Shown here: positions 2,056 through 42,394 of the stretch, in pieces
Position numbering within the stretch: the first letter of the stretch is position 1
Layout: each line of letters starts with the position of its first letter
Source of the DNA: Aureococcus anophagefferens
Lineage: Eukaryota > Sar > Pelagophyceae > Pelagomonadales > Pelagomonadaceae
NCBI RefSeq assembly: GCF_000186865.1
Contig: NW_008705562.1
Coordinates: forward strand, 117,460 to 159,853
Reading direction: 5' to 3'
Length of the DNA stretch: 42,394 nucleotides
Notes under the pieces: generated by a model
Told to the model about the DNA's origin: nothing
The model's database searches: none
What the model saw: only the letters and a program-made list of their open reading frames with translations
Made by a program: the position numbers and the translations under genes

Positions 2056-5000
2056 TTAGGACGTATCCTTGGGCGTGAGCTGCCCCCCCGGGCCGCGGCC
2101 CTCGTCGTCGTCGTCGCTCCAGCCGTCGTCGGAGAGGTCCTCGCGGTCCTCGGCCTCGAGCACCGCGCCCGCGCGGACGTTGCGGAGGAACGACGTAAAG
2201 TCCGCGCCGCTCTGCGAGTCGCGCTGCTGCGACGGCCGCCGCGACGGCCGGCGCGCGGCGCCGCCGGGCTCGGCGGCGCCCAGCGCCGCGGCGCGCGCGC
2301 GCTTCTTCGACTCGAGCTCGCCTGCGGCGGTTCGCGCGCGTCGGCCCCGCGGCGGCGGCGGAGGGCGGGGGATACGCGGCGCGACGCGCGGCGCCTCCGC
2401 TCGCGGAGCTTCGCCTCCTCGCGGTCCTCGAACTCCTTGCCGTAGGCGTCGACGAAGCCGAGGATGTCGTCGATCCAGGCCTGGAAGTCCGTCGTCTTCG
2501 GGTCCTCGCCGTAGGACCGGAGGCAGCCGTCGACCTGTGTGAAAATCAAATCTTCAACCCGACTTCAATGTGCGCGTATGCGAATATTTTGACACGAGCA
2601 CTTCCGCCGTGCTTCGAGAACTCGCTAAGAGCAATCGATTCGTCCAAAAATCAGCCGAATCGACTTCGATTTGACCGAGCTAGAGAATTCTCAAGTTTGG
2701 CCCCGACGTCCCAGCTCACTGGTTGATTTGCACACAGCCGTCGACGTCCGCGTTGACGTCGAGGAGCGCCGCCTCGAGGCCTAGAAGAAGCGGGGGCTTC
2801 GAGCGCGGGCGCCGCGCGCGGGGAAGAAGAAAAAAAACGGCGCGGGGCGACGCGCGCTCGAGGTCGACGTCGACGTCCGCGACGACGCGCGCGACGCGCG
2901 CCGCGGCGAGGTCCGAGACCGCGGAGCCCTCGGCCGCGAGGCGCTCGCGCTCCGCGTCCGCGCCGTGGCGCTCGGCCGTGAGCGCGCGGAGCTCCTCGGC
3001 GAGCGCGTCGCGCGACGTCGCCTGCGCCGCGTCGGCGAGGCCGCCGAGCTCCCGGCGGAGCACCTGGGGCTTGACCCGCGCGTGGCGCGCGACGTACTGG
3101 AGCAGGTTCGCCGACTCCGCGCCGCCGCCGCGCGCGCGCGCGCCTCCCGGAGCTTGCCGAGCGCCGACGTGCGCACGCCCGGCCGCTGGGCCCGGGCCGT
3201 GCCGTGGTTCGCGAAGTTGGCGACGCCGAGCGCCGTCCGGAGCACGTCCCGGAGGCCGTAGGAGCCCGCCAATTGGTTCGCCGCGGTCTTGAGCGGCGCG
3301 ACGCCGCCGTCCACGAGCTCCGCGCAGCGGTCCGCGTAGGTCGCCTCGAGCCAGAGGTAGCCGACCTTGGCCGCGCAGCGGGGCACGCCGCAGGCGACGA
3401 CGGCGAAGAGCGCCGACGGCGCGTCGAGCGACGGCGCGAGGAGCCGCGCCGCGTCCGCGTCGCGGAAGCCGTCGCGGCGCACGGCCGCCTGGACCGCGCG
3501 GATCTCCGATTCGCCGGCGAAGAAGGCCTTGAGGGGCTCGAGGCAGCGCGCGACGCCGTCGGCGAGCGCGCGGGCCCCGAGGCGGCCGCCGTCGAGCGTG
3601 AGCAGCGTTTCAACGACGGCGTCGTCCCGCGCGCGGACGTTGCCGTGGAGCACGTTGAGCTCCAAGGCGCGGCGGTCGCCGAAGAGCTCCGTGACGAGGG
3701 ACCGCTTCTTCGACGCGGGCTGGGCCTTTTTCGGCGCCGCCGCGCCGGCGGCGGCCGCGCCGCGGTCCACGAGGCCGAAGACGTCTTCGAGGTCCGCGGA
3801 CGCCTCGGACCGGAGCGGCGCGTCGAAGCCGCGCCACCAGTCGCCCGACGCGAGCGCGTCGTCGTCGGAGGCGTAGTCGAGGTAGACGCGGCGCGTCTTG
3901 ACGCGCGGCTTCCGCTCGCAGCCCGGCGGCGGGCCCCGGCGGACGACGGCCGGGGCCGCGACGTCGACGGCCGCGTCGGCCGCTTGGGCCGATGATGAAC
4001 CCGCGCCGCCGTCGAGGAGCGCCGGGTCCAGGCCGTCGGCGCGCATCTTGTTCTCGACGGCGCCGCGGGGCACGTGCATCTGGAGCATCTTCAGGTACTT
4101 GGCGAGGACCGCGCCGCCCGCGCGCGGCGCGGCGCCGGGCTCCGCGGCGGGCTCCGGCGCGTCGAGGAGCGCGACGTCGAGGCCTTCCGCCGCCATCTTC
4201 GCGCGCACGGCGCCGTAGGGCACGTGCATCTTCAGCATGCGCGCGTAGCGCTCGAGCCGCGGGTCGTCGCGCGCCGCGGCGGCGGGCGCGGTTCGCGCGG
4301 CCTCGGCGGCGGCCGCCGCGCGGCCGTCGCGGCGCGCCGCGGCGTCGCGCGCGCGCGCGCGGTGGAGCTGCGCGAGGCGGCTCCGCTCCGCGCGCGCCGC
4401 GCGGCGGTCCGCGACCGTGCGCGTCATCCGCGCGTCGAGATCCGCGAGGCCGTCGCCGAAGACGAGGTCGCCGTCCATGGCCCGGAGCGCGTCCGCGAGC
4501 CGCGGCGGGTCGCCGGCCGCGGGCGCCGCGGGCCGCCGCCGGGCCCCGAGGCTCGCCCGGTCGGCCTCGAGGTCCTCGCCGAGCGCGCGGAGCACGCCGT
4601 CCGCGCGCGCATCGCCTGCGAGCCACGCGGCCCGCATCGCGCGGTCCGCGAGGGAGCGGCCGCGCCTGGGCAGCACAAGAGTGATTCAACGTTCGCTTCA
4701 ACGTGAGTGTTCCGCGCGCGCGCGTTACGGAAAACACATCCACGCTTCGAGACCGTTCCGAGAGATGATCGCTCGTCCAAAAATCAGCCGAAACGAGTGA
4801 AAAACGGCCGAGATAGGAGCCTTTGAAGCTGGGAATGTCGCACTCTTTTGCTGCCCTTGCCCGCGCCGCTCGCCGCCGGGCGCCGCGGCGTCGCAGTCCG
4901 CGGCCTCGTCGCGCTCGCGCGCGTCGCAGGCGCCCAGGAACGCGTCCGCGGCGGCGCCGAGCGCGCGCGCGGCCGGGTCCCCGGCGGCCGCGGCCGCGCG

Positions 5001-6604
5001 CGAGATCGCGAGGAGCGGCGGGCACCGGTGCTCCTCGCCGCGCGCGCCGCCCGCGCCCGCGGCCGCGCGCGCGAGCACGTCCGGCGGCGCGCGCCGCCGC
5101 CGCGCCGCCGGCGCGCGGTCCCGCGACGCACTCTTCGCGAGCGTCGCCTTGGGCGCCGCGGCCGCGGGCGCGACGCGCACGACGGCGTTCGCCGCGCGGC
5201 AGTACAGCGCGCCGCGCGCGAGCGCCGCGGACCGCGTCTTCTCCGCGTCGCAGGTCGCGGCGAAGAGCCGCGCGGCCGCCGCGGCGAGCGGCGCGTCGGC
5301 GCCGCGCGCGTTGAGCAGGTCCGCGAGCGCGGCGTAGCGCGGCGGCCGCGCGTCCGCGGCGCCGCGCGGCGCCGCGGGCGCGAGCGGCGCGCGGGCGAGC
5401 GCGGCGTCGCCGAAGCGCGCGGCGCCGTCGACGCGATCCAAAACGGCGTCGACGACCCGCAGGCCCTCCTTCTCCTTGCAGAGCGCGGCGAGGAGGTCGC
5501 AGACGACGGCCGAGAGCAGCGGCAGCCGGAGCTGGAGCGCGCCGAAGGCGAAGCGCTTGAGGTTCGCGCGCTCGCGCTTGAGGCGCGCGAGCTCGCCGAG
5601 CGCGTGGGGCACGAGGCCCACGAGGCGCACGCACTTGACGGCGACGAGCGCGAGCGCCGCGTCGCCGACGGACGCGACGCCGCCGCCGCGCGCGAGGTAC
5701 GCGACGGACCGGCCGAGCGACGCGAGCGTGAAGTCGCGCGTCACGACGGCCGCGAGGTCCTCGGCGAAGGCGTCGTCGGCGCCGCGGCGCCGGCCGCCCG
5801 CGCGCGCGCCCGACGCGCGGAGCAGCGCGAGCCGCGCGGGGAGCGCCGCGAGCTCCCGCCTGGGCAGGACAAGAGTGATTCAACGTCGCTTCAACGTGAG
5901 TGTTCCGCGCGCGCGCGTTTCGGAAACAGCACCCACGCTTCGAGAGCGCTCCGAGAGATGATCGCTCGTCCAAAAATCAGCCGAAACGAGCGGAAAACGA
6001 CCGAGATAGGAGCCTTTGAAGTTGGGAATTTCGCACCCTTTTGCTGCCCTGGCTCCCGCGGCGAGAAGCCGCGCTCGCGGCGCCGCCGCCGCCGGAGCTC
6101 GCGGACGACGGCGCCGATGGCCCGCGCCCAGCGGGCCCGGGCCGCCGACGCGTCGACGCGGACGACGAAGGCCTCGCGCGGGTCCTCGACGTCGCTCGGC
6201 CGCGGCGCGGCGGCGTCGTCCGCCGCCGCGGCGCCGCGCGCGCGCGCGCGCCGCGCCGCGGGCGCGCGCTGCGCGTCCTCGATGGCGCTCTCCCAGAAGG
6301 CGACGCCCGCGCCCGTGCGGCAGTCGAGCTCGCGGACCTTGGGCTTGCGGCCGCCGGGCGGCGGCGGCGCGACGACGCGGAGCGAGTGCGGCCGCCCGGG
6401 CCGGCCCGCGCGCGCCGTCGACGTGCCCCGGGGCACGGCCATGGTCTTGTCGTAGGCCGGCCGGCCGCCGCGCCGCGACGCGTGGGACACGACGCGCAGC
6501 TCGCCGTCGCGGAGCGTCGCCACGGCGGGGAGGTAGGAGATGCGGCCCGTCACCCATCCCCGGCTCCGGACGACGACCTCCGCGTGGGCCGACGCCTCAC
6601 CCAT
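2056..6604 (-). CDS. Diaphanous-type formin (PH-like, FH3, CCDC53-like motifs, FH2), interrupted by introners
   Basis: Formins nucleate and elongate actin filaments. I assemble exons 6604-6060, 5859-4867, 4665-2856, 2780-2746, 2534-2405 and 2321-2056 (about 1259 aa). Exon 1 has a PH-like segment starting GWVTGRISYLP and ending in a Trp-containing helix (ARWARAIGAVV). Exon 2 is Ala/Leu-rich helical sequence resembling the armadillo FH3/DID region (CDLLAALCKEKEGLRVVDAV). Exon 3 has two motifs like the WASH-complex CCDC53 region (KYLKMLQMHVPRGAVENKM), then an FH2 domain with ALELNVLHGNV and the lasso-like LGVANFANHGT. The C-terminus DFTSFLRNVRAG plus acidic tail resembles an autoregulatory DAD. 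Three introns are introners (A2, A1, B1). A 1-nt frame break sits in the GC run at 3119-3142; one missing base restores the frame. The 75-bp intron 2855-2781 is my inference; the 83-bp intron 2404-2322 rests on frame and splice sites. Confidence 0.8.
2322..2404 (-). other. 83-bp intron of the formin gene with diverged flanking repeat
   Basis: Reading the minus strand, removal of this stretch joins EEAKLRE to LESKKRAR and keeps the frame to the stop at 2056. The intron begins GCGAGCGG (a GC donor) and ends GCCGCAG; the next exon begins GCGAGCTC, so the first six bases are repeated at both boundaries. This matches the target-duplication layout of the introners (6 of 8 bases), but the ends are not clear inverted repeats. 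It may be an old, shrunken introner, or the match may be chance. Confidence 0.6.
2535..2737 (+). mobile_element. Introner family B copy 1 (B1), 203 bp, in the formin gene
   Basis: The termini are inverted repeats: CTGTGTGAAAATCAA at the left and the complement of CTGTGTGCAAATCAA at the right. The element is flanked by an exact 8-bp duplication CCGTCGAC (2527-2534 and 2738-2745). On the coding minus strand the intron runs 2745-2535, starts GTCGACGG (donor supplied by the duplication) and ends CACACAG (acceptor supplied by the element); splicing rebuilds LLDVNADVDGCLRSY. It carries the core TCGTCCAAAAATCAGCCGAA at 2640-2659. Orientation '+' is defined by that core; the element is antisense to the gene. 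No open reading frame suggests a transposase, so it is non-autonomous. Confidence 0.9.
3119..3142 (-). other. 1-nt frame break in the formin FH2 domain
   Basis: FH2 homology runs in one frame up to TSALGKLREARA and resumes in another at ESANLLQYVARHAR, with the change falling inside an alternating GC run. There is no room for an intron. Adding one base restores a continuous FH2 domain and a gene length divisible by three. A consensus error in a GC-only tract is the simplest explanation; a real lesion is not excluded. Confidence 0.65.
4666..4858 (+). mobile_element. Introner family A copy 1 (A1), 193 bp, in the formin gene
   Basis: The left end CTGGGCAGCACAAGAGTG pairs as an inverted repeat with the right end CACTCTTTTGCTGCCCTT. 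The flanks GGCCGCGC (4658-4665) and GCCCGCGC (4859-4866) are an 8-bp target duplication with one mismatch. The minus-strand intron runs 4866-4666, starting GCGCGGGC (GC donor) and ending TGCCCAG. Its removal joins GGERRG to RSLADRAMRAAW in frame. It is the most diverged A copy at its right terminus. The core lies at 4773-4792. Antisense to the gene. Confidence 0.88.
5860..6051 (+). mobile_element. Introner family A copy 2 (A2), 192 bp, in the formin gene
   Basis: The ends CTGGGCAGGACAAGAGTG and (complement) CAGGGCAGCAAAAGGGTG are inverted repeats. An exact 8-bp duplication GCTCCCGC lies at 5852-5859 and 6052-6059. The minus-strand intron 6059-5860 starts GCGGGAGC (GC donor from the duplication) and ends TGCCCAG. 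Splicing rebuilds RGFSPRELAALPARL, linking the PH-like exon to the FH3-like exon. Antisense to the gene and close in sequence to A1, A4 and A5. Confidence 0.92.
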
Positions 6605-6798: not shown

Positions 6799-9642
6799 CT
6801 ACCCCGACGTGAGCAGGGGCACGGCGGTCACGTTGCCGAACTCGTCGATGTGGACCCGCTCCTCGACGAGGTCCTCGACGCGCGGCCGCTCCCACGCGGC
6901 CTCGCCCGTGGCCGTGTTCCAGTAGTAGATGTCGCCGTCGTCGGTCGCGACCTCCTCCCACTCGTCGGGCGGCGCGCCCTCGAGGTACGCGCCGCCGCCG
7001 TCGCCGCCGTCGTCGTCGCGCGGCGCGATCTCTTCCGCCGGCACGCCCGCGCGGAAGTCGCCGTCGCTGAAGACGACGTCGTAGGTCCCGTCGCCGACGT
7101 CCTCCGCGACGCGGCCCGGGTACCAGAGGCCGTCCTCCCACGCGGCGAGGCAGAAGTCGCCCCGGCGCCACCCGTAGAGAGCGAGCGCGCCGGCGTCGCC
7201 CTCGGGCGCCGCGGCCGCGCCGCCGCCCGCGGGCGCGGCGGGGGCGGGCGCGCCGGCGCTCGCGCCGGCGTCGTCCGGCGCGGGCGCGGGCGCCGCGTGG
7301 ACGCTCTCCGACGCGCCGGACGCGAAGGACACGAGGTCCGGCCCGCGTAGTTCGTCTGGAAGCCCTCGCGGTTCGCCGCGCCGACGTTGGGCCGCATCGT
7401 CGGCCGGGCATTGCGGGGCCGCGGCGGCGCCTCCGTCGACGCGGACCCCCACGTCGCCTCCGTCGCGAACGTCCGCGCGTCGGACCGCGCGTCCGCGTCG
7501 CCCGGCCCGCGCGCGCCCGCGTCGTGGGCCGTGCGGATGCGCCAGCCCACGAGGTGCTGGACGGACCGCCGCCGCTGGAGCGCCTGGAGCTTGAGCGCGA
7601 CGCGGCCGCGGTCGCGGCGCCGCCCGAGCCGCCGCCGCGCGCGGCCGAGGAGCCGCTGCGCGAACGCGAGGCTCCCGGACCGGCCGCGCGCCGCGCGCTC
7701 CGCCGCGCGGCACTCCGCGAAGGCCGCCCGCGCGAGGCGCAGGTCGCCGCGCGCGGCCTCGACGCGGACGTCGTGCGTCTTGAGCGTCGACCGGAGCCGC
7801 TCCCGGAGCGCGTCCTCGACGTTGACCGCGCCCAGGAGCCGCGCGTCCGCCGGCGACCTCGCGCGCGGCGCCCGCACCACGGCCTCCTGCGCGTCGGCGA
7901 CGACGGCCATGGCCCGGGCGATGAGCGCCTCGATGGGCCGGCGCGCGGCCTCCCGCAGCTCCTCGAGCGCCTCGATGCGGAGCTCGCGGCCTTTGACGTC
8001 ATCCGCGGCCGCGCGCGAGTGCCACTTCGCCGCCTCCTTGGCGAGCACGGCCGCGGGGAACTCGCGCCGCGCGGCGCGCACGTAGACGAGGAGCACGGCC
8101 GCAGCCCGCCGCGCGGCGACGACGCGCGCCTCGCAGGCCTTGGCCCCGGTCGCGGCCGCCGTGTCGACGCGCGCGGCCTCGATCACCCGCGCGTCCTCGA
8201 GGTCCGCCTCGTCGAGGAGCCGCCGCGGCGATGTGAGCCATCTCGGGGGGCCGCCGCGCGGCGACCGCGGCGGCGTCGCCGGCGGCGGCTCGAAGCCCCA
8301 GAAGAGGTCCCCGGGCGGCGCCTCGTCCGCGGCCGGCGCCGCGACGCCGCCCGCCTCGCTCGGCGGCACCTCGTCGTCCCTCGCGACGTCGTCGCCCCAC
8401 CAGAGCACGGGCACGAGCTTGCCCCGCGACGCCCCGCGCTCGAGCTTGCCCCGCGACGCGCCGCGCTCGAGCTTGCCCCGCGACGCCCCGCGCTCGAGCT
8501 TGCCCCGCGACGCCCCGCGCTCGAGCTTGGCCCGCGACGCCCCGCGCTCGAGCTTGGCCCGCGACGCCCGGCCCTCGGGCGCGCCCGCGCCGCGCTCGGC
8601 CGCGGCCGGCTCCTCGGCGTCGCCGTCGCCGTCGCCGTCGGCGACGAACGTGTCGACGCGGACGTCGTCGGGCCCCGCGGCGAGCGCCGGCTCGGGCCGC
8701 GGCCGCCGGCGCCGGGGCACGGCGCCGCGGAAGGCGGTGGACCGCGTCGGGTCCGTCGTGTAGCGCGCGCAGCCCGCGAGCGACGCCGACTCGCCGAAGA
8801 GGGACCCGACCTGTGTGCAAATCAACCAGTGAGCTGGGACGTCGGGGCCAAACTTCAGAATTCTCTAGCTCGGTCAAATCGAAGTCGATTCGGCTGATTT
8901 TTGGACGAATCGATTGCTCTCAGCGAGTTCTCGAAGCACGGCGGAAGTGCTCGTGTCAAAACATTCGAATACGCTCACATTAAAGTCGGGTTGAAGATTT
9001 GATTTCCACACAGGACCCGACCGAAGGCGCGGCCGCGAGCGCGGACAGCGCGCCTCGGACGTCGGCCCCGGCGCTCGCCGACCGCGCGGGCGCCAGGTAG
9101 GGCGGCCGCGGCGTCGAGTCCTCGGGCCGCGCCCGCCGCCGGCGCCCGGCGGCCGCGCCGCCGCGCCCGGGCCGCAGCGCGGCCGCGGCCGCGGCCGCGT
9201 CGCGCCGCGCGGCCGCGTACGCCTCGGACGCGGCCCGGCGGCCGTCCGCCGCGTGGACGGACGCGCCCGCGAGCTGGTCGAGGGCCTCGTCGACGCGCCC
9301 GACGGAGACGGCCCCGAGGAACGCCGCGACGTCGAGCGGCGCCGCGGGCCGCTCGCGGCGGAGCGTCGCGTAGTCGTCGACCTCGCCGGCGCCGGCGCCG
9401 CTCGCCGGCGGCCGCGGGGCGCCGTAGGCCTCGACGCGCGTCCGCCGGCGCTCCGCTTCGCCCGCGCCGAAGGCCGCGAGGGACCGCTCGAGCGCCTCGG
9501 CGGCGGTGTCCGCGTTCGGCCGCAGGGGCGCGATGGGGTAGCGCGCCGGGTCGACGACGGCGGCGCCCGCGGCGGCGGCGGCGCCCGCGGCCACGGCGTG
9601 CGACGTGTGCGGCTGGCTCACGAGGATCGACGGCCGACCCAT
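6799..9642 (-). CDS. WW-domain and Tudor-like protein with a 9-residue tandem repeat; function unknown
   Basis: Exons are 9642-9022 and 8810-6799 (about 877 aa) around introner B2. The N-terminal exon (MGRPSILVSQPHTSHA) is Ala-rich without a recognised domain. The second exon opens GSLFGESASLAGCARYTTDP, followed by six copies of a 9-residue repeat of the type KLERGASRG, a long helical basic region, a Tudor-like stretch (GDFCLAAWEDGLWYPGRV) and a C-terminal WW domain (DEWEEVATDDGDIYYWNT, second Trp in EAAWERP). WW domains bind proline-rich ligands, and Tudor-like folds often bind methylated residues; a scaffold role is inference. A 1-nt frame break at about 7336-7345 separates TNYAG from PDLVSFASG; one extra base restores the frame. 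The ATG at 9642 is preceded by a 16-codon ORF ending 4 nt upstream. Confidence 0.7.
7336..7345 (-). other. 1-nt frame break in the WW/Tudor-like gene
   Basis: The helical region reads in one frame to NREGFQTNYAG and the Tudor/WW part continues in another as PDLVSFASGASES. The switch falls in a short GGCC-type run and would be repaired by one extra base. The total exon length is one short of a multiple of three, which agrees. Probably a consensus error. Confidence 0.55.
8417..8575 (-). repeat. 27-bp coding minisatellite, about six units
   Basis: Roughly six head-to-tail copies of a 27-bp unit encode KLERGASRG or KLERGASRA on the minus strand. The unit is three codon triplets long, so copy number can change without breaking the frame. 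Copies are nearly identical, indicating recent expansion. The encoded segment is strongly basic and likely unstructured. Confidence 0.85.
8811..9013 (-). mobile_element. Introner family B copy 2 (B2), 203 bp, in the WW/Tudor-like gene
   Basis: The ends are CTGTGTGCAAATCAA and the complement of CTGTGTGGAAATCAA. The exact 8-bp duplication GACCCGAC lies at 8803-8810 and 9014-9021. The minus-strand intron 9021-8811 starts GTCGGGTC and ends CACACAG; splicing gives AAAPSVGSLFGES. The length matches B1 exactly, but the core is on the opposite strand, so this copy lies sense to its gene while B1 is antisense. Confidence 0.92.
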
Positions 9643-10183: not shown

Positions 10184-12680
10184 ATGAATTCCCTCGCTGC
10201 CATCGCTGTCCTCCTCGCCCTGCCGCGAGTGACGGCCCAGTGCGCGCCCGGCACCGTCGCGTTCTCCGAGCACGTGATCACGACGCTGGCCGACGACGGC
10301 CAGTCCGTCTTCGCCGTCGACGTCGACGGCGACGGCGACGCGGACATCCTCACGGCGTCGAACTACGACGACACGGTCGCGTGGTACGAGAACGACGGGT
10401 CCCAGTCCTTCGCGGAGAACGTCCTGACCAACTCGGCGAACGGCGCCAACTTTGTCTTCGCCGCGGACGTCGACGGCGACGCGGACGTGGACGTGCTCGC
10501 CTCCGCGGGCCAGGACAACTCCGTGACGTGGTTCGAGAACGACGGCTCCGGCGGGTTCACCGGGAACGAGATCACGGCCAGCGATACCTTCGTGACCTAC
10601 GTCTTCGCGGCGGACGTCGACGGGGACGGGGACGTGGACGTCCTGTCGGCGGCCTACTCGGGCGAGACGGTCAAGTGGTTCGAGAACGACGGGTCCGAGG
10701 GCTTCACGGAGCACACGATCGCGTCGTCGAAGGCCGGGTCCAAGTGCGCGTTCGCGATCGACGTCGACGGCGACGGCGACGTGGACGTCATCGGAGCGAC
10801 GCGGGTCCCGAGCGGGACGGGCGCGGCGACGTGGTACGAGAACGACGGGTCCGAGGGCTTCACGGAGCACGACATCGACTCGGGGTACAACCTGAACCCG
10901 ACGCCCGTCTTCGCGACGGACGTCGACGGCGACGGCGACGTGGACGTGCTCGGGGGCTCCGAGGGCAGCGACCAGGTCAAGTGGTACGAGAACGACGGGG
11001 CCGAGTCCTTCACGGCCCACGTCATCACCGACTCCGCGGACGCGGTCCACACGGTGCGCGCGGAGGACATCGACGGCGACGGAGACGTGGACGCGGTCTC
11101 CGGCAGCTACAGCGCCAAGGAAGTCGCCTGGTACGAGAACGACGGGTCCCAGTCCTTCACCAAGGCGACCATCGTCTCCGGCGACTCCTTCGACGGGGCG
11201 CGGCCCGTGTTCACGATCGACGTCGACGGGGACGGGGACGTGGACGTCGTCGCCATGGCCGCGCTCGTCGACACCGCGTCCTGGTTCGAGAACGGGTGCG
11301 CCGGACCCACGGCCGCGCCGACCGCGACTCCGACGCCCAAGGCCACGACCTTCTGCACGAGCGTCGCGTTCTCCGAGCGGATCATCACGACGCTCGCAGA
11401 CGGCACTCGCTCGCTCTACGCGGTCGACGTCGACGGCGACGGCGACGTCGACGTGCTGTCGGCGTCCGAGAATGACGACACGGTCGCGTGGTACGAGAGC
11501 GACGGCTCCCAGTCCTTCACGGAGCGCATCATCACGAATTCCGCGGATGGCTCCCGCTCCGTCTTCGCGATCGACGTCGACGGCGACGGCAGTATCGACG
11601 CGCTGTCCGCGGACTCCGGCGACGACACCGTCGCGTGGTACGAGAACGACGGGTCCCAGTCCTTTACTGAGCGCATCGTCACGACGCTGGCGGACAACGT
11701 CTACTCCGTCTACGCGATCGACCTGGACGGTGACGGCGACGTCGACGCGCTCTCGGCGTCCTACACCGACGACACGGTCGCGTGGTACGAGAACAACGGG
11801 GCCCAGGCCTTCACCGAGCGCGTCATTACGACCCTCGCGGACTCCGGGGGCAGACGTCGTCTTCCCGAGCCGCGGCGTCCCCGGCGCGCGTCGTTCGCCG
11901 GTCGATCAGCTCCTCGAAGAGCTTCGTCAAGCGTTCCCCATGTTCATCTCGCCGATAGTCTCGGCGCTTCCCGAGGGCGGCGCGCGCCGGGGCGGCACCG
12001 GCGAGGCCGTGGGCATGATCCTCGTCGTCCTCTTCTGCGTCGTGGTGTACGGCGCGATCCAGGGCGTCGTCGCCGTCTACGCGAGGGCCGCGCGCTGCTG
12101 CCACGTCCGCATGCCGAAGTCGCGCGATAAGCGCGAGTTTCTCTCCGCGGCTCGCGCCGTCTTCGACATCATCGACGTCGACGGCAACGGCTCCCTCGAC
12201 CGCGCCGAGATCGTCGCCCGCGTCGCGCGCCCGGAGGTCCGCGCGTTCCTCGAGGACAGCGGCGACGAGACCCTCCAGGGCCTCCTCTGGCCCGGGCGGC
12301 TCGAGGCCGCCCTCGGCGCGCTGGACACGAACAGCGACGGCAAGATAGACGCGCGGGAGTGGGGGTCCGCCATCGAAGTCGCGCTCGCGAAGACCTTCGG
12401 CGACGGCGGCGGCGAGCGCGGCGACGGCGACGTCGTCCTCGCGCCCGCCGCGGTCGACCGCGCGCCGCGCGCCGACGCGTGGACCTTCGACGAGAGCGCC
12501 CGCGTCCCGGCCGTCGATATCGACTCGGCGGGGAGCGCCGTGGCCGACTTCAACGCCGCCGAGGACGCGTCGTCGCCGGTCCCCCTCGCGCTCGACGAAG
12601 GCGCGCCGGAGGCGACGCCGCCGGCGTCGCCGGGAATCCTCGTCATCCGAGCCGACGACCCGAGCCCCGAGTCCGAGTGA
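10184..12680 (+). CDS. Type I membrane protein with ten FG-GAP/VCBS repeats and two EF-hands
   Basis: The ATG at 10184 starts a clear signal peptide (MNSLAAIAVLLALPRVTAQC). Ten FG-GAP/VCBS-type repeats of about 50 residues follow, each with a calcium-loop core such as DVDGDGDVDVL and a WYENDGSQSF segment; this fold is a beta-propeller in integrin-alpha-like proteins. A short Thr/Pro/Ala linker interrupts the series near 11300-11350. Past the repeats are a transmembrane helix (GMILVVLFCVVVYGAIQGVV, about 12015-12075) and two canonical EF-hand loops, DVDGNGSLDRAE and DTNSDGKIDARE, then an acidic tail. Expected topology: calcium-binding ectodomain outside, calcium sensor inside. A frame break lies in the G run at 11846-11850; dropping one G fuses the halves into about 831 aa. 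A collapsed repeat or two separate genes are alternatives. Confidence 0.72.
11846..11850 (+). other. 1-nt frame break in a run of five G in the FG-GAP/EF-hand gene
   Basis: The FG-GAP frame reads through ERVITTLADSGG and then loses coherent sequence, while another frame continues ADVVFPSRGVPG into the membrane helix and EF-hands. Removing one G joins the two. The exon length from ATG to TGA is one more than a multiple of three, in agreement. Repetitive DNA just upstream makes a local assembly error plausible. Confidence 0.6.
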
Positions 12681-13062: not shown

Positions 13063-14804
13063 ATGGCGTCGCCCGAGGGATGGCACAAGGGCCTCGACGG
13101 CATGCTCGTGAAGAAGTGGGACCCGCACGCGAAGACGCGCGCGGCGGCCTACGAGCAGAGCCTCAAGGAGCACCAGGTCCGGCGCCTCAACGGCGAGGGC
13201 GCGTCGACCTACGCGTCGAACCAGGCGTCGAGCGTCGCCGAGCGGGGCGCGGCCGCGCGGCGCAAGGCCGCGCTCGCCAAGGAGGAAAAAGTCAACCGCG
13301 CGAGGAAGTTCAACGACCGCCACGGCGAGGCCATCGCGCGGCGCCACGCGGCGGCGGCGAAGCCGGGCCGCCACGCCGCCGCGGCGGGCCACGAGGAGAA
13401 CGAGCGCTACATGGACGACTTCCGGAGCGCGTACGGCCTCGCCGCGCCCGCGCCCGTCGCCGCGGCCGCGCGGTCCCCGGGCGCGCTCGGCGCGCTCGGC
13501 CGGCACCGGGTGGCGAGCTGGGCCGGCCCGCTCGACCGCGGGCAGCTCCGGAGCTACCGCCGGGGCCCCGCGGACCCGCGCGGCGCGCTCGTCGACTGCA
13601 GCGACCGGCCCCTCCTGTGCATGAGCGTCTCCGACGACGGCCGCGACGTCGTCGTCGGCTCCGCGGACCACGCGGCCTACGGCGTCGACGCGGCCGACCC
13701 CCGGCCCAGGCCCGCGCGGACCTACCACGGCAAGGACGACGGCCACGCGGAGTGGGTCGCGGCCGTCGCGCACTGCGGGCCCCACGGCGTCGCGACCGGC
13801 GGCGTCGACGGCAAGCTCTGCCTCTGGCGCCGGGGCGCGCGGGCCGAGGACGTCGCCCCCGCGGGCGGGCCGTCGCTGTCCGTGCTCCTCGCCGACGGCG
13901 CCGCGCCCCANNNNNNNNNNNNNNNNNNNNNNNNNNNNNNNNNNNNNNNNNNNNNNNNNNAGGTCGCGGTCCTCGCGCCGAAGCGGGGCAAGGCGCCCGC
14001 GCTCTGCGCGGCCTGGACGCCGAGCACGGCCGTCGTCGGCGACCGCGGCGGCGCCGCGACGTGCTACGACGTCGAGCGCTGCGCCGCCGTCGCGTCGCTC
14101 GAGCCCGCGGGCGCGGCCGCGGGCCACTGCGTCGCGCTCGAGGCGCTCGAGGAGATGCACGGCGACCTCGTGGTCACGGGCCACCAGGACGGCGTCATCC
14201 GCAGGGCAGGACAAGAGAGCGAAATTCCCAACTTCAAAGGCTCCTTTCTTGGCCGTTTTCCACTCGTTTCGGCTGATTTTTGGACGAGCGATCATCTCTC
14301 GGAACGGTCTCGAAGCGTGAATGCTTTTCCCGGAACGCGCGCGCGCGGAACACTCACGTTGAAGCGACGTTGAATCTCTCTTGTGCTGCCCAGGTCATCC
14401 GGGGCTGGGACCCGCGCGACGGCGCGCGGCCGTCCTTCGAGATCCCCGCGCACGCGTCGCCCCGGGGCGCGGGCGCCGCGTCCTGCCTCGCGCGCCTCGG
14501 CGACGGCGCGCGCCTCGCGTCCTGCGGCGCGGACGGGCGCGTCGCGCTCAGCGACGTCCGCTACGGGAAGCCGCTCCTCTCGTTCGACGACCACGCGGAC
14601 TTCCCCTACTGCCTCGCGGTGCTCGGGGACCTCCTCTTCACGGGCGCGGGCGACGGCGCGCTCCTCTGCCACGACGTCTCCGGCGCCGGCTCCTGCGAGT
14701 GGGGGCTCGGCGCGGGCCTCGGCGCCGTGCGTTGCGTCGACGCGCGGCCGGACCAGCTCGTCGCCGCGGGCGACGACGGCAACGTCCTGCTCTGGCGGCT
14801 CTGA
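13063..14804 (+). CDS. WD40-repeat protein, with a sequence gap and an introner-derived intron
   Basis: Exons are 13063-14193 and 14394-14804; the intron is introner A3 plus its left duplication. The ATG at 13063 opens MASPEGWHKGLDGMLVKKWD, a basic helical N-terminus, and WD40 blades follow from about residue 180 (LLCMSVSDDGRDVVVGSADH, GVATGGVDGKLCLW, LVVTGHQDGVIRGWDPRDG, LLFTGAGDGALLCHDV, LVAAGDDGNVLLWRL). Five to seven blades fit a propeller. Fifty N at 13911-13960 lie inside a blade; the frame is the same on both sides as given. The partner is unknown; WD40 propellers act as protein scaffolds. Neighbouring NDK-like and IFT54-like genes also have flagellar relatives in other protists, but this is weak context. 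Confidence 0.78.
13911..13960. other. 50-base assembly gap (N)
   Basis: Fifty consecutive N inside the WD40 coding region. The round number suggests a placeholder whose true length is unknown, so the frame continuity across it may be accidental. Confidence 0.99.
14202..14393 (-). mobile_element. Introner family A copy 3 (A3), 192 bp, in the WD40 gene
   Basis: The termini CAGGGCAGGACAAGAGAG and CTCTCTTGTGCTGCCCAG are inverted repeats. The exact 8-bp duplication GTCATCCG lies at 14194-14201 and 14394-14401. The plus-strand intron 14194-14393 starts GTCATC and ends TGCCCAG; removal rebuilds HQDGVIRGWDPRDG, an unmistakable WD40 strand. This is the clearest case in the window that the pre-insertion site is restored by splicing. 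Antisense to its gene by the core. Confidence 0.95.
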
Positions 14805-15063: not shown

Positions 15064-16660
15064 CTAGGACGAGAGCGCGGGCGCGCTCGCCGAGGCCTTG
15101 AGCCCCGCCTTCTCGCGCGCGCGGCGCCGGCCCTGGAGGCCGCGGAAGTGGACCTGGACGCCGAGCGCGGCCTTCTGGCACGGGTCCGCGTGCGAGCCGC
15201 CGCCCTCGGAGAGCCAGGCGAGCGCGCGCATGAGGGAGATGGCGGCGACGACCTTGGACTCGGCGTTCTGGCACGCGCCGATGTCGCCGAGCTTGGCCGC
15301 GCACGCCGCGCGGTCGCTGTCCTCGAGCTGGTCGAAGACGGACCCGCGCTTGCCGCCGCCGTCCGGGAGGATGACCTGGGGGTCGACCTTCCACTCGCCG
15401 AGCGTCTGGGCGCCGACGAGGCCGAGCACCTCGGCCCCGAAGGAGTCCGCCTTCGGGTCGAGCTGGAGCCAGTTCATCTTCTCCGCGAGCGCCTCGAAGG
15501 GCGACGCGGACGCGTGGACGCCGTTGTCGCCGACGTTCGGCGCCTCGGCGAGGCCGAGCTCCTGCCAGCCGCTGTTGATGAGGCCGCGGAGCGAGTCCGC
15601 CGGCGCCGTCGCCGGGTCCGTGGGGCCCAGCACGTCGCCGCGGAACGACGCCCAGGAGAGCTCCGCGGGGTCGAAGTCGACGACGTAGTAGTGGATGGAC
15701 ACGTCGGGCTTGCAGAACTTGGACCGCATGGACATGAAGAAGCCGTTGAGCGTGTAGGTCGACTTGTCGCCGACGGTGACGAAGCCGCAGTAGAAGCCGC
15801 CGCCGAACTTGACGAGCCGCTTCGCCTGCGCGGGACGCGACCGGTGGAGGCGCGTCCGGCGAAGCTCCGGACCCCGCGCGCTCGGCCGCGTCGACGTCGA
15901 CGCGGCCCCGGATCGCGACCTCTCGGCGCGCGCGTTCCGGAGCGCCGCACCCCCCGCGTCGGACCGCGTCGACGGAAGTCGCGCGGACCGCGGTCGCGTC
16001 CCGCGCGGCGCGGCGCCTTCTTGCACGCGGCCCACGCGCCTGGGCAGGACAAGAGAGATTCAACGTCGCTTCAACGTGAGTGTTCCGCGCGCGCGCGTTC
16101 CGGAAAAAGCATCCATGCTTCGAGACCGTTCCAAGAGATGATCGCTCGTCCAAAAATCAGCCGAAACGAGTGGAAAACGGCCGAGATATGAGGCTTTGAA
16201 GTTTGGAATTTCGCTCTCTTGTCCTGCCCTGCCACGCGCCGTCGAGCGCGTCCGCGTCGCAGCCGAGCTTCTTGCAGGCGTCGAGGGCGTTGACGACGCG
16301 GCCCTCGTCCAGCACCTTTTGCCAGGTCTCGCCGAACTGGGCCTCGAACTTTTCCACGGGCACGTTGAGCTCCCGCGGCTGCATGATCGTCGCCTTGGAC
16401 GCGATCGCGTAGTAGTGCTGGTCGATGTACTGCTTGGCGTCGATGGTCGGGCCGTCGATGCTGCCCTCGGCCGTGATGCGCACGCCGACCTTGGAGAACT
16501 TGTCCTTGACGAGGGCCCGGACGGCCTCCGTGTTCGCGTGGGGCTTCACGAAGACGAAGGCGCTCTGGCGCGTCTTCAGGAACGCGTCGATCTCCTCCTG
16601 GCTGTGGCCCGCGGCGAGCGCGTCGGCCGCCGTCGCGGGGACGCTGCCGCCGGCGCCCAT
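15064..16660 (-). CDS. Nucleoside-diphosphate-kinase-like domain protein, split by two introners of different families
   Basis: Exons are 16660-16240, 16039-16017 (a 23-nt micro-exon) and 15825-15064, giving 401 aa in frame. The N-terminal half has an NDK-like beta strand and helix (SAFVFVKPHANTEAVRALVK). After the splice junctions, FGGGFYCGFVT and FRGDVLGPTDPATAPADSLR match the NDK phosphate-binding region, and NVGDNGVHASASPFEALAEK resembles the catalytic loop with a candidate active His near residue 252. The protein is much longer than a canonical NDK of about 150 aa because of insertions and a C-terminal extension. NDKs transfer gamma-phosphates between NTPs and NDPs; activity here is likely but not assured. 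The gene is divergent from a small membrane-protein gene, 146 bp apart. Confidence 0.78.
15826..16008 (-). mobile_element. Introner family C (C1), 183 bp, in the NDK-like gene
   Basis: On the minus strand the element begins CCGCGCGGGACGCGACC and ends with the complement of CTGCGCGGGACGCGACC, a near-perfect 17-bp inverted repeat. The flanking 8-mers GCGCCGCG and GCGAAGCG match at 6 of 8 positions, reading as an old duplication. The intron 16016-15826 has a GC donor and ends CGCGCAG. The interior is GC-rich and lacks the A/B core, so this is a separate family with the same splicing layout. No second copy is visible in this window; strand given is that of the gene. Confidence 0.72.
16040..16231 (+). 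mobile_element. Introner family A copy 4 (A4), 192 bp, in the NDK-like gene
   Basis: The ends CTGGGCAGGACAAGAGAG and (complement) CAGGGCAGGACAAGAGAG are inverted repeats. The exact 8-bp duplication CCACGCGC lies at 16032-16039 and 16232-16239. The minus-strand intron 16239-16040 starts GCGCGTGG (GC donor) and ends TGCCCAG, joining DALDGAW to AACKK. Antisense to the gene; sits 23 bp from family C element C1. Confidence 0.94.
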
Positions 16661-36524: not shown

Positions 36525-38302
36525 ATGAGCGGCGCGCTGGACGAGGCCCTCGCGGCCATCCACACGGCGACGAGCCTCCTGTCGGAGCTGCGCTGCGACG
36601 GCGAGGTGTCCGGCGACCACGAGGGCGGCGCGGACGCCGACGCCGCCCCGGCGGCGCCCCCGCGCGGGGCCGACGAGCTCCGGGGCCTCCTGGAGCAGCT
36701 CAGCGGCGTGAGCGTCCAGGTGCTGCTGAGCGCGACGAGCCCCGGCTCCACGGTCCTCGTCGCGAAGGACGACGACGACAGCAGCGACGACGACGGAGAC
36801 GAGCTCGTGATGACGGAGCTCGACCCCGCGGAGGCCGCGGCGACCCTGGGCCTCGCGGCGCCGGCCGTCGACGACGGCGGCGACGACGGCCTCAGCAGCG
36901 ACGACGAGCCGCTGCAGAGCGCGCCCGTCACCCTCGGCTCCGCGGACATTGCGAAACTCAAAGCCGTGAACGCGGGCCGCGCGGCGCCGCGCCGCGCGCC
37001 CGCGGCCATCGCCTGCGAGTACGTCGCCTACGCCGACGAGGTCCTCGACTTCCTGCGGGGCGGCCACGCGGCCTTCGCGCACCTCTTCGACAAGTCGCTC
37101 CGCCGCGCGCACGGCGCGCGGCGCGCGACGGTCGAGGCCCGGGCGGGAAACGAAACGATTCCACGCGACTTCCATGTGCGCGTATTCGCACTGTTTCGAC
37201 GCGAGGCTTTCTGCCGTGCTTCGAGAACTCGACGAGAGCGATCGATTCGTCCAAACATCAGCCGAATCGACTTTGACCGAGCTCGAGAGTTCCGAAGTTC
37301 GTTCGGGATAACCCGGCTCACGGGTTGTTTCCGGCGCAGGTCAAGGCGCGCCGCGCGGCGCTCGACGGCGCGGCGCCGCCCGCCGGCGAGTCGGCGCCCG
37401 CGGCGGCGGCGGCGCGGCCGGCCTACTCGCCCCTCCACCGGCCCGAGGTCCCCGACGCGGTCGCGCGGCTCGATGCGACCGACGCCGCGCGCTTCCGCGC
37501 GGCGCGGCGGAACCGCGCCCCCGCGGCCCTCGCGGGCGCGCTGGGCAGCGGCGACGAGGGGCGCGTGCGCCTCGCGGCCTGCGCGCTCGAGCCCTTCCTC
37601 GAGCTCCTCGGGCCGCGGCGCGTCGTCGGCCTCCGGCTGCCCGGCGGCGGCGGCGCCGCGCCGCCGCGGGCCGACGGCCCGCCCCGGAGCGTCGCCGACG
37701 CGCTGCGCGTCGACGACGTCGCGGCCCCCGCGACGGCGCCCGTGACCGCGGCGTCCTTCGCGGCCTGGCTCGGCTCGCCGCGGAAGGTCGCCGCGGCCGC
37801 CGTCTTCGGCCTCAACGGGTCCGTCGCGGGCGCGCTCCTCGAGGCGCCCCTCGCCCAGCTCGGCCGCGACCTGGGCCTCGAGGCGCGCCCGAACTTCGCG
37901 GGAGAGCTCGAGGCGACGTGGGCGTCGCCGGACCACGCGGAGCCCTGGGCCTGCGGGCCCGCGGACGCCACCCTCCTCGCGCTCCACGGCGCGCTCGACG
38001 CCGTGCTCGTCCCGCCCAAGGCCCTCGCGGACGCCGAACGCGCGCCCGGCGCCGCGGCGGCGGCCGCGCCGGCCGGGCCCTGGCCCGAGCGCGCGCGCGG
38101 CGCCGCGCTCCGCGCGCGCGTGCGCCCGGGCGACGCGCTCTTCGTGCCCGCGGGCTGGGCCCTCGAGCTCGCGGCGGCGCCGGGCCAGGACCTCGCCCAC
38201 GTCCTCTGGGTCGCCAAGACGTGGCTCACGACGAACCGCGACGTCGCCCACTGCGTGCCGCCCGAGGCCCTCTCGGGCGGCGCGGACGACCCCGTCGCCT
38301 GA
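36525..38302 (+). CDS. Cupin/JmjC-like protein with an acidic N-terminal half, split by introner B3
   Basis: Exons 36525-37130 and 37340-38302 give 522 aa in frame. The N-terminal part (MSGALDEALAAIHTATSLLS) has acidic runs (DDDDSSDDDGDE) and a conserved-looking helix CEYVAYADEVLDFLRGG directly before the intron. The C-terminal part ends in a cupin-type strand pair, RARVRPGDALFVPAGWALEL followed by DLAHVLWVAK, like the JmjC-like enzyme gene at the window start. A clear HxD metal pair is not visible, so it may be catalytically inactive or have a divergent site. The JmjC label is tentative. The splice restores GARRATVKARRAALDGAA. Confidence 0.62.
37139..37339 (+). mobile_element. Introner family B copy 3 (B3), 201 bp, in the cupin-like gene
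   Basis: Flanked by GTCGAGGC (37131-37138) and GTCAAGGC (37340-37347), an 8-bp duplication with one mismatch. The plus-strand intron 37131-37339 starts GTCGAG and ends GGCGCAG. The interior matches B1 (CATGTGCGCGTAT, TGCCGTGCTTCGAGAACTCG, CGATTCGTCCAAACATCAGC), but the ends are diverged: CCGGGCGGGAAACGAA and (complement) CTGCGCCGGAAACAA. It is an older or subfamily copy, sense to its gene. Confidence 0.86.
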
Positions 38303-41890: not shown

Positions 41891-42394
41891 TTAGACGCGC
41901 TTCTTCGGCCTTCGCGGCGCGTCGTCGCGGACGCCGGCGAGGGCCCGCGCGGCGTCGGCGAGCGTCGCGTGGGCCGCGTCGACGACGGCCGGCCTGGGCA
42001 GGAAAAGGGTGCGACATTCCCAACTTCAAAGGCTCCTATCTCGGTCGTTTTCCGCTCGTTTCGGCTGATTTTTGGACGAGCGATCATCTCTCGGAGCGCT
42101 CTCGAAGCGTGGGCGCTGTTTCCGAAACGCGCGCGCGCGGAACACTCACGTTGAAGCGACGTTGAATCACCCTTGTCCTGCTCCGCGGCCGGCGCGGCGC
42201 CGACGGCGCCGAGCGCGAGGGCCGCCGCGGCGACGCGGCCGCGCGGCGACAGCGGCGCGTGGTCGCCGTAGCCGAGCGTCGTCGCCGTGACGAAGGCGAA
42301 GTAGGGGCCGTCGGCCGGCGGCCAGCCCTCGAGCGCGCCGAGCGCGGCGCCCGCGGCGGCCAAAACCGCGGCGACCGCGGCCGGCCGCGCGCCG
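41891..42394 (-). CDS. Two-pore-type potassium channel fragment, C-terminal part (runs off the window end)
   Basis: Exons 42394-42194 (open at the window edge) and 41993-41891. The P-loop and selectivity filter read YFAFVTATTLGYGDHAPL, the canonical T-x-T-T-x-G-Y-G-D, followed by a hydrophobic helix (RVAAAALALGAVGAAPA). The second exon is short and basic (VVDAAHATLADAARALAGVR, ending RRPKKRV). The Ion_trans_2 fold suggests two TM helices per pore domain; how many pore domains precede it is outside the window. Potassium selectivity follows from the GYGD filter. The intron is introner A5, spliced GC-AG. Confidence 0.8.
41994..42185 (-). mobile_element. Introner family A copy 5 (A5), 192 bp, in the K+ channel gene
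   Basis: The left end CTGGGCAGGAAAAGGGTG pairs with the right end CACCCTTGTCCTGCTCCG. The exact duplication CGGCCGGC lies at 41986-41993 and 42186-42193. The minus-strand intron 42193-41994 starts GCCGGCCG (GC donor) and ends TGCCCAG. The core is reversed relative to A1, A2 and A4, so this is the only A copy here lying sense to its gene. Confidence 0.93.

Follow-up and report, generated by a model that had tools for sequence, protein, structure and literature searches.

Five units of 192-193 bp in the analysed window – the whole stretch of 42,394 nt from Aureococcus anophagefferens – are very probably copies of a high-copy, transposon-like introner, each of which is predicted to be spliced from the first copy of a target repeat to the 3' end of the element. 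These units (family A, A1-A5) lie where the original prediction had placed them and have the lengths given there. They are predicted to act as spliceable introns.

Family A units in the window

4666-4858, minus strand: introner A1, 193 bp; duplication 7/8; predicted intron 4666-4866
5860-6051, minus strand: introner A2, 192 bp; duplication 8/8; GC donor; predicted intron 5860-6059
14194-14201, plus strand: first copy of the A3 duplication, GTCATCCG; predicted 5' end of the intron, with a GT donor
14202-14393, plus strand: introner A3, 192 bp; ends CAGGGCAG...CTGCCCAG; in a WD40 gene; predicted intron 14194-14393
14394-14401, plus strand: second copy of the A3 duplication; opening codons of the next exon (VIRGWD)
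16040-16231, minus strand: introner A4, 192 bp; duplication 8/8; GC donor; predicted intron 16040-16239
41994-42185, minus strand: introner A5, 192 bp; duplication 8/8; GC donor; in an ion-channel-like gene; predicted intron 41994-42193

Identity to A3 among the five units is 90-100%, and the interior of A5 is mirrored relative to the splice direction given by its ends. The units had been described as carrying inverted ends of about 18 bp and 8-bp duplications. For the duplications of A2 to A5 this holds at all eight positions; the duplication of A1 matches at 7/8 and the 18-bp inverted ends are imperfect. Excision of 14194-14393 rebuilds the WD40 frame as had been claimed, giving GHQDG^VIRGWDPRDG. 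The assertion that all units interrupt a conserved coding frame is borne out by homologues for A3 and A4 and by a Pfam match for A5, and reduces to open frames for A1 and A2.

Copy number, ends and duplications

The genome searched comprises 49.05 Mb in 86 contigs. A first scan returned 1,963 candidates, and the 40 that were scored are 97-100% identical. With up to two mismatches allowed, 732 + 726 sites in the genome match the 18-bp end, versus 2 + 0 for a reversed control; hence, these matches are not due to chance. The genome-wide search for the element that the original prediction had suggested yields 1,141 family A copies with intact ends at element spacing (control: 6). Near-identical copies at unrelated sites, inverted repeats and an 8-bp duplication are thus all present, as is characteristic of TSD-type introners. 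The proposed introner with transposon-like structure passes the sequence-level tests, and the same kind has been published in A. anophagefferens.

Duplications were scored in 116 copies (the window and 98 loci) at the best offset, shifting each end by at most 6 bases: 102 are perfect, 11 match at 7/8 and 3 at 6/8. Among 97 copies, 84 of which start with the exact 18-base end used to choose most loci, the number of agreeing positions between the two inverted ends ranges from 7 to 17 out of 18, and no copy has a match at position 2. By subtraction, 1,128 of the 1,141 copies read CAGGG...CCCAG on the sense strand, with the interior in either orientation. The form CTGGG...CCCAG accounts for the other 13 (control: 4), of which, according to the printed sequences, 6 appear genuine and 7 are artefacts of register. 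The form CAGGG...CCCTG, which would offer an acceptor on neither strand, was not found at element spacing anywhere in the genome (0; control: 1). Because these patterns specify A or T at position 2, they miss any copy with a different letter at that site, as found in 5 of the 13 copies without the exact 5' end. Nearly all copies with intact ends retain the acceptor-bearing end on a single strand. Forward and mirrored copies form largely separate clusters: for 126 of 133, the nearest neighbour belongs to the same class.

Reading frame and predicted splice sites

A codon model was derived from 1,742 codons of window genes only, the gene of A1 and A2 among them, and evaluated on 106 copies located elsewhere in the genome, most of which had been picked by their exact 5' end. 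Left out beforehand were the window copies, three copies whose duplicates match at fewer than seven bases, two short-flanked copies, and those in loci L001, L018 and L019. After removal of one duplicate plus the element, 101 of the 104 callable copies keep a continuous frame; 3 shift, and 2 further copies are uncertain. At 3,480 random window positions, the model called 2,515 coding in frame, 272 shifted and 693 uncertain. GC or GT at the start of the duplication, combined with AG at the end of the element on the coding strand, occurs in 99 of the 106 copies; the other 7 have no clear GC/GT + AG pair and yield no direction prediction. In all 99, the splice direction given by ends and duplicate is that of the coding strand.

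A second set of 20 copies was drawn, irrespective of the exact 5' end, from the 24 intact copies that head the list for contig 1, the other four having been retrieved earlier; it was scored with flanks of about 99 bp and no confidence threshold. GC/GT donor, coding strand and continuous frame are each found in 20/20. The duplicates are perfect in 16 copies, with one at 7/8, two at 6/8 and one at 4/8, and half of the interiors (10/20) are mirrored.

The 3' inverted end, which is rich in pyrimidines and finishes in CAG, is the predicted acceptor. Donor, acceptor, frame and homologue comparisons agree with the earlier proposal that the intron is the first duplication copy plus the element. At the level of sequence, the copies thus fit a scheme in which the element would provide one splice site and the duplicated target the other, leaving the length of the message unchanged.

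Family B and putative decayed relatives

A second family with different ends is represented in the window, together with two candidates for decayed copies.

2535-2737, minus strand: family B introner, 203 bp; ends CTGTGTG...CACACAG; duplication CCGTCGAC; predicted intron 2535-2745
8811-9013, minus strand: family B introner, 203 bp; duplication GACCCGAC; predicted intron 8811-9021; interior shared with family A
37139-37339, plus strand: probable decayed family B relative; duplication 7/8, GTCGAGGC/GTCAAGGC; ends now G+C-rich
15826-16016, minus strand: second predicted intron of the A4 gene, 191 bp; GC..AG; 82% G+C

Family B has 550 intact copies in the genome (control: 0), and its ends give AG on both strands. 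Donor and frame fit in 8/8 copies, two of them in the window, that passed filters on ends, duplicate, flanks and core, a set that omits the B-ended copies in loci L039 and L065; the core runs along the coding strand in six of the eight and against it in two. The interior is homologous to positions 26-173 of the 192 positions of the family A profile (E 3e-10 in the search of all loci, 2e-13 when searched alone). The match does not reach the terminal repeats: the two families have the interior in common and differ in their ends.

For the copy at 37139-37339, the predicted intron 37131-37339 was picked by GT..AG, with other 8/8 repeats lying close by. Its G+C-rich ends suggest that older introners drift to the composition of the host. 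The intron at 15826-16016 is possibly a strongly decayed introner. By eye, its inverted ends match at 11/12 positions and its duplicate at 6/8. Global comparison with family A gave scores of 3.5 and 6.5, compared with maxima of 2.0 and 0.5 among 300 shuffles; local alignment exceeded 200 shuffles in one of four comparisons (30 vs 25).

Definition of the donor

Among the 97 copies with a perfect duplicate and a clear GC/GT + AG pair, to which this count is confined, 60 donors are GC and 37 are GT; the adjacent exons contain 3.6 GC per GT, and the two together make up 20% of their dinucleotides. From -4 to +11 around the donor, no position beyond the GC/GT pair exceeds 0.1 bit in these 97 copies, and on average 6 GC/GT dinucleotides lie between -20 and +8. 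It is conceivable, though we consider it rather unlikely, that RNA pairing of the inverted ends sets the donor by juxtaposing the GC/GT 8 nt upstream with the AG, i.e. that the donor is fixed by a ruler, 8 nt upstream of the inverted-end stem, without any motif other than GC/GT. The scarcity of sequence information among so many potential donors favours such a refinement, although small departures from background do occur at donor +3 and exon -2 (uncorrected chi-square of 9.9 and 9.6, respectively, with 3 d.f.). Predicted folds, which were run with no shuffled control, pair at least 10 of the 18 end positions in 91 of 97 copies. The two arms also vary together: in family B, 36 of 50 variants are identical between the arms versus 15.8 expected, and in family A co-variation is found for 20 pooled copies (p 0.0004) and for the 10 mirrored copies (p 0.0008), but is not significant for the 10 forward copies (p 0.45). 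However, a transposase that needs matched ends, or descent within subfamilies, would yield the same co-variation. A literature search covering few subscription papers found no such proposal for A. anophagefferens.

Insertion and spread

According to the mechanism we favour, a transposase would cut and paste the element into exons, and the 8-bp repeats were likely created on insertion. A duplicated target that starts with GC or GT may then serve as donor, while the 3' inverted end would supply the pyrimidine-rich tract and the CAG acceptor; with the donor in the duplication and the acceptor in the inverted end, the mRNA would be unchanged. Copies landing at unspliceable places were probably lost, and old copies likely drift to the G+C content of the host, becoming ordinary-looking introns.

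The sampled copies lie nearly all in coding sequence: only 2/106 are uncertain, versus 693/3,480 random positions, a background taken from one window only. If copies inserted at random and were lost where they lay in genes and could not be spliced, the expected non-coding share of the survivors would be 0.71 for a genome with 20% non-coding DNA, and 0.34 for one with 5%. Loss of bad copies alone therefore fails to explain the coding placement, and exon targeting would have to be added. Introners are enriched in genes in 161 of 175 genomes (PMC9860276).

The same placement – nearly all sampled copies coding and in sense orientation – could also be expected if copies spread via RNA, by reverse splicing or intron transposition, and not as DNA elements; in Micromonas, this pattern led the authors of PMC3879977 to propose intron transposition. 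For family A such a route is very improbable. Reverse splicing predicts neither 8-bp duplications, which are perfect in 102 of 116 copies, nor inverted ends, and the high frequency of internally mirrored copies (10/20) likewise argues against it.

Genome-wide, though by weak searches, no autonomous partner and no longer element with family A ends was found. The ends followed by a base absent from the short element occur at 15 places (control: 1), which were rejected as autonomous partners since they look like point variants, seen over 19 letters each, of the same body. Profiles of the hAT (PF05699) and KDZ (PF18758) transposases had no match in the genome, and control genomes were equally silent with both. 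Family A has the 8-bp duplication of hAT elements. The ends of hAT elements begin with YARNG; the CAGGG end fits this pattern, while the CTGGG end and CTGTG of family B do not. The RAG-like transposon of A. anophagefferens was discarded as a mobiliser, as it makes 5-bp duplications (PMC9435367) and family A has 8 bp. A viral vector was also considered: an 18-base core occurs in two viral contigs as an isolated match of 18-20 bases that does not extend, which we read as chance, and another stretch of the element gave 0 matches in viral contigs.

Host genes and their homologues

The spliced WD40 protein is 92% identical over 64% of its length to A. anophagefferens JL722_3727, and by protein match the host is this species or a closely related strain. 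Compared by eye, the window repeats at 10319-10404 encode the same DVDGDGDADILTASNYDDTVAWYEND stretch that JL722_3727 contains, and because of this common stretch the two loci look the same. At the protein level, the WD40 part of JL722_3727 opens with VIRGWDPR, exactly at the predicted A3 acceptor. The gene model of A. anophagefferens fuses this part with a repeat array at 10255-11803, whose spacing is mostly 147 bp (GACGTCGACGGCGACGG...) and which resembles an FG-GAP/VCBS repeat protein. Within the WD40 gene, 50 bases upstream of A3 (13911-13960) are masked.

Eight of ten WD40 matches were aligned at A3, with P0128 and P0129 left out; their source contigs may be genomic or transcript-derived. 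All five other proteins that cross the junction do so without an insert (P0121, P0123, P0124, P0125 and P0127); P0123 has additional residues some 14 positions past it. The WD40 part of P0122 starts at the junction, and P0130 stops short of it. P0126, an environmental ORF that has 99% identity across 38% of the query, runs on into the element at the A3 site. In the A4 gene (15064-16660, minus strand), the first 149 residues have no Pfam match and 218 database matches; 9 homologues from the 120 listed were aligned, and none of the nine has an insert at the A4 junction.

That the units are ordinary miniature transposons, left unspliced in dead or mispredicted genes, is scarcely credible: of the 15 frames examined across duplicate plus element, 13 do contain between one and three stops, but this reading leaves the GC/GT start, the agreement with the coding strand and the continuity of the frame without explanation, and the aligned homologues lack the insert at A3 and A4.

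The A5 gene has a Pfam ion-channel match at residues 11-71, which barely crosses the junction after residue 66. The gene of A1 and A2 has a CCDC53 match away from both junctions. A 27-bp tandem repeat, seen as seven overlapping 81-nt copies, lies at 8367-8609.

Relation to known introners

The core finding is already known, for its kind and host match those of published A. anophagefferens introners. Introner elements of this species were reportedly described by Huff, Zilberman and Roy (Nature, 2016), and are said there to carry one splice site and to take the other from the duplication. Family A is like the published introners in host, intron length (200-210), direct repeats and inverted ends; the comparison, made by description and not by consensus letters, shows no difference. 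For the introners of A. anophagefferens, PMC7789003 reports direct repeats and inverted ends, both constant in length, and PMC9481584 gives an element length of about 210 bp; PMC9860276 refers to them as well.

Other systems share single traits with family A. The introners of Micromonas resemble it in their sense orientation in transcribed regions and in their GC donors (53% in IE-A1), but IE-A donors have a longer consensus, AG|GYGCGT or AG|GTGAGAC, whereas family A has almost none beyond GC/GT (PMC3879977). Family 4 of Aureococcus sp., from the same genus, also makes an 8-bp duplication; unlike family A, which is predicted to add nothing, it supplies both splice sites itself and lengthens the transcript by 12 bp (PMC9860276). 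Amoebophrya introners likewise have inverted ends able to pair in RNA, and hairpins have been proposed for them; their direct repeats of 3-5 nt and non-canonical splice sites contrast with the 8 bp and GC/GT-AG of family A (PMC7789003). The RAG-like transposon is a DNA transposon of the same host, reported to be active, but differs in its 5-bp duplications and end sequences (PMC9435367).

What the present analysis adds are details: a nearly empty donor, more GC than GT donors, an acceptor end on one strand only, an interior common to families A and B, and the placement in coding sequence. Some of them bear on an old observation, i.e. that 39.6% of the introns of A. anophagefferens are GC-AG, the origin of which was called an enigma (PMC3033335); in Micromonas, GC donors have been tied to introners (PMC3879977). 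Capture of donors by introners from GC-rich exons would, at the level of sequence, explain the GC-AG introns. If the donor were indeed set by a ruler, spliceosomal introns would here be defined by structure and not by sequence, which would also help explain this share of about 40%. Introners show how genomes can gain very many introns fast and with little harm, and the window agrees with the introner mechanism in an alga that is probably the one for which it was described.
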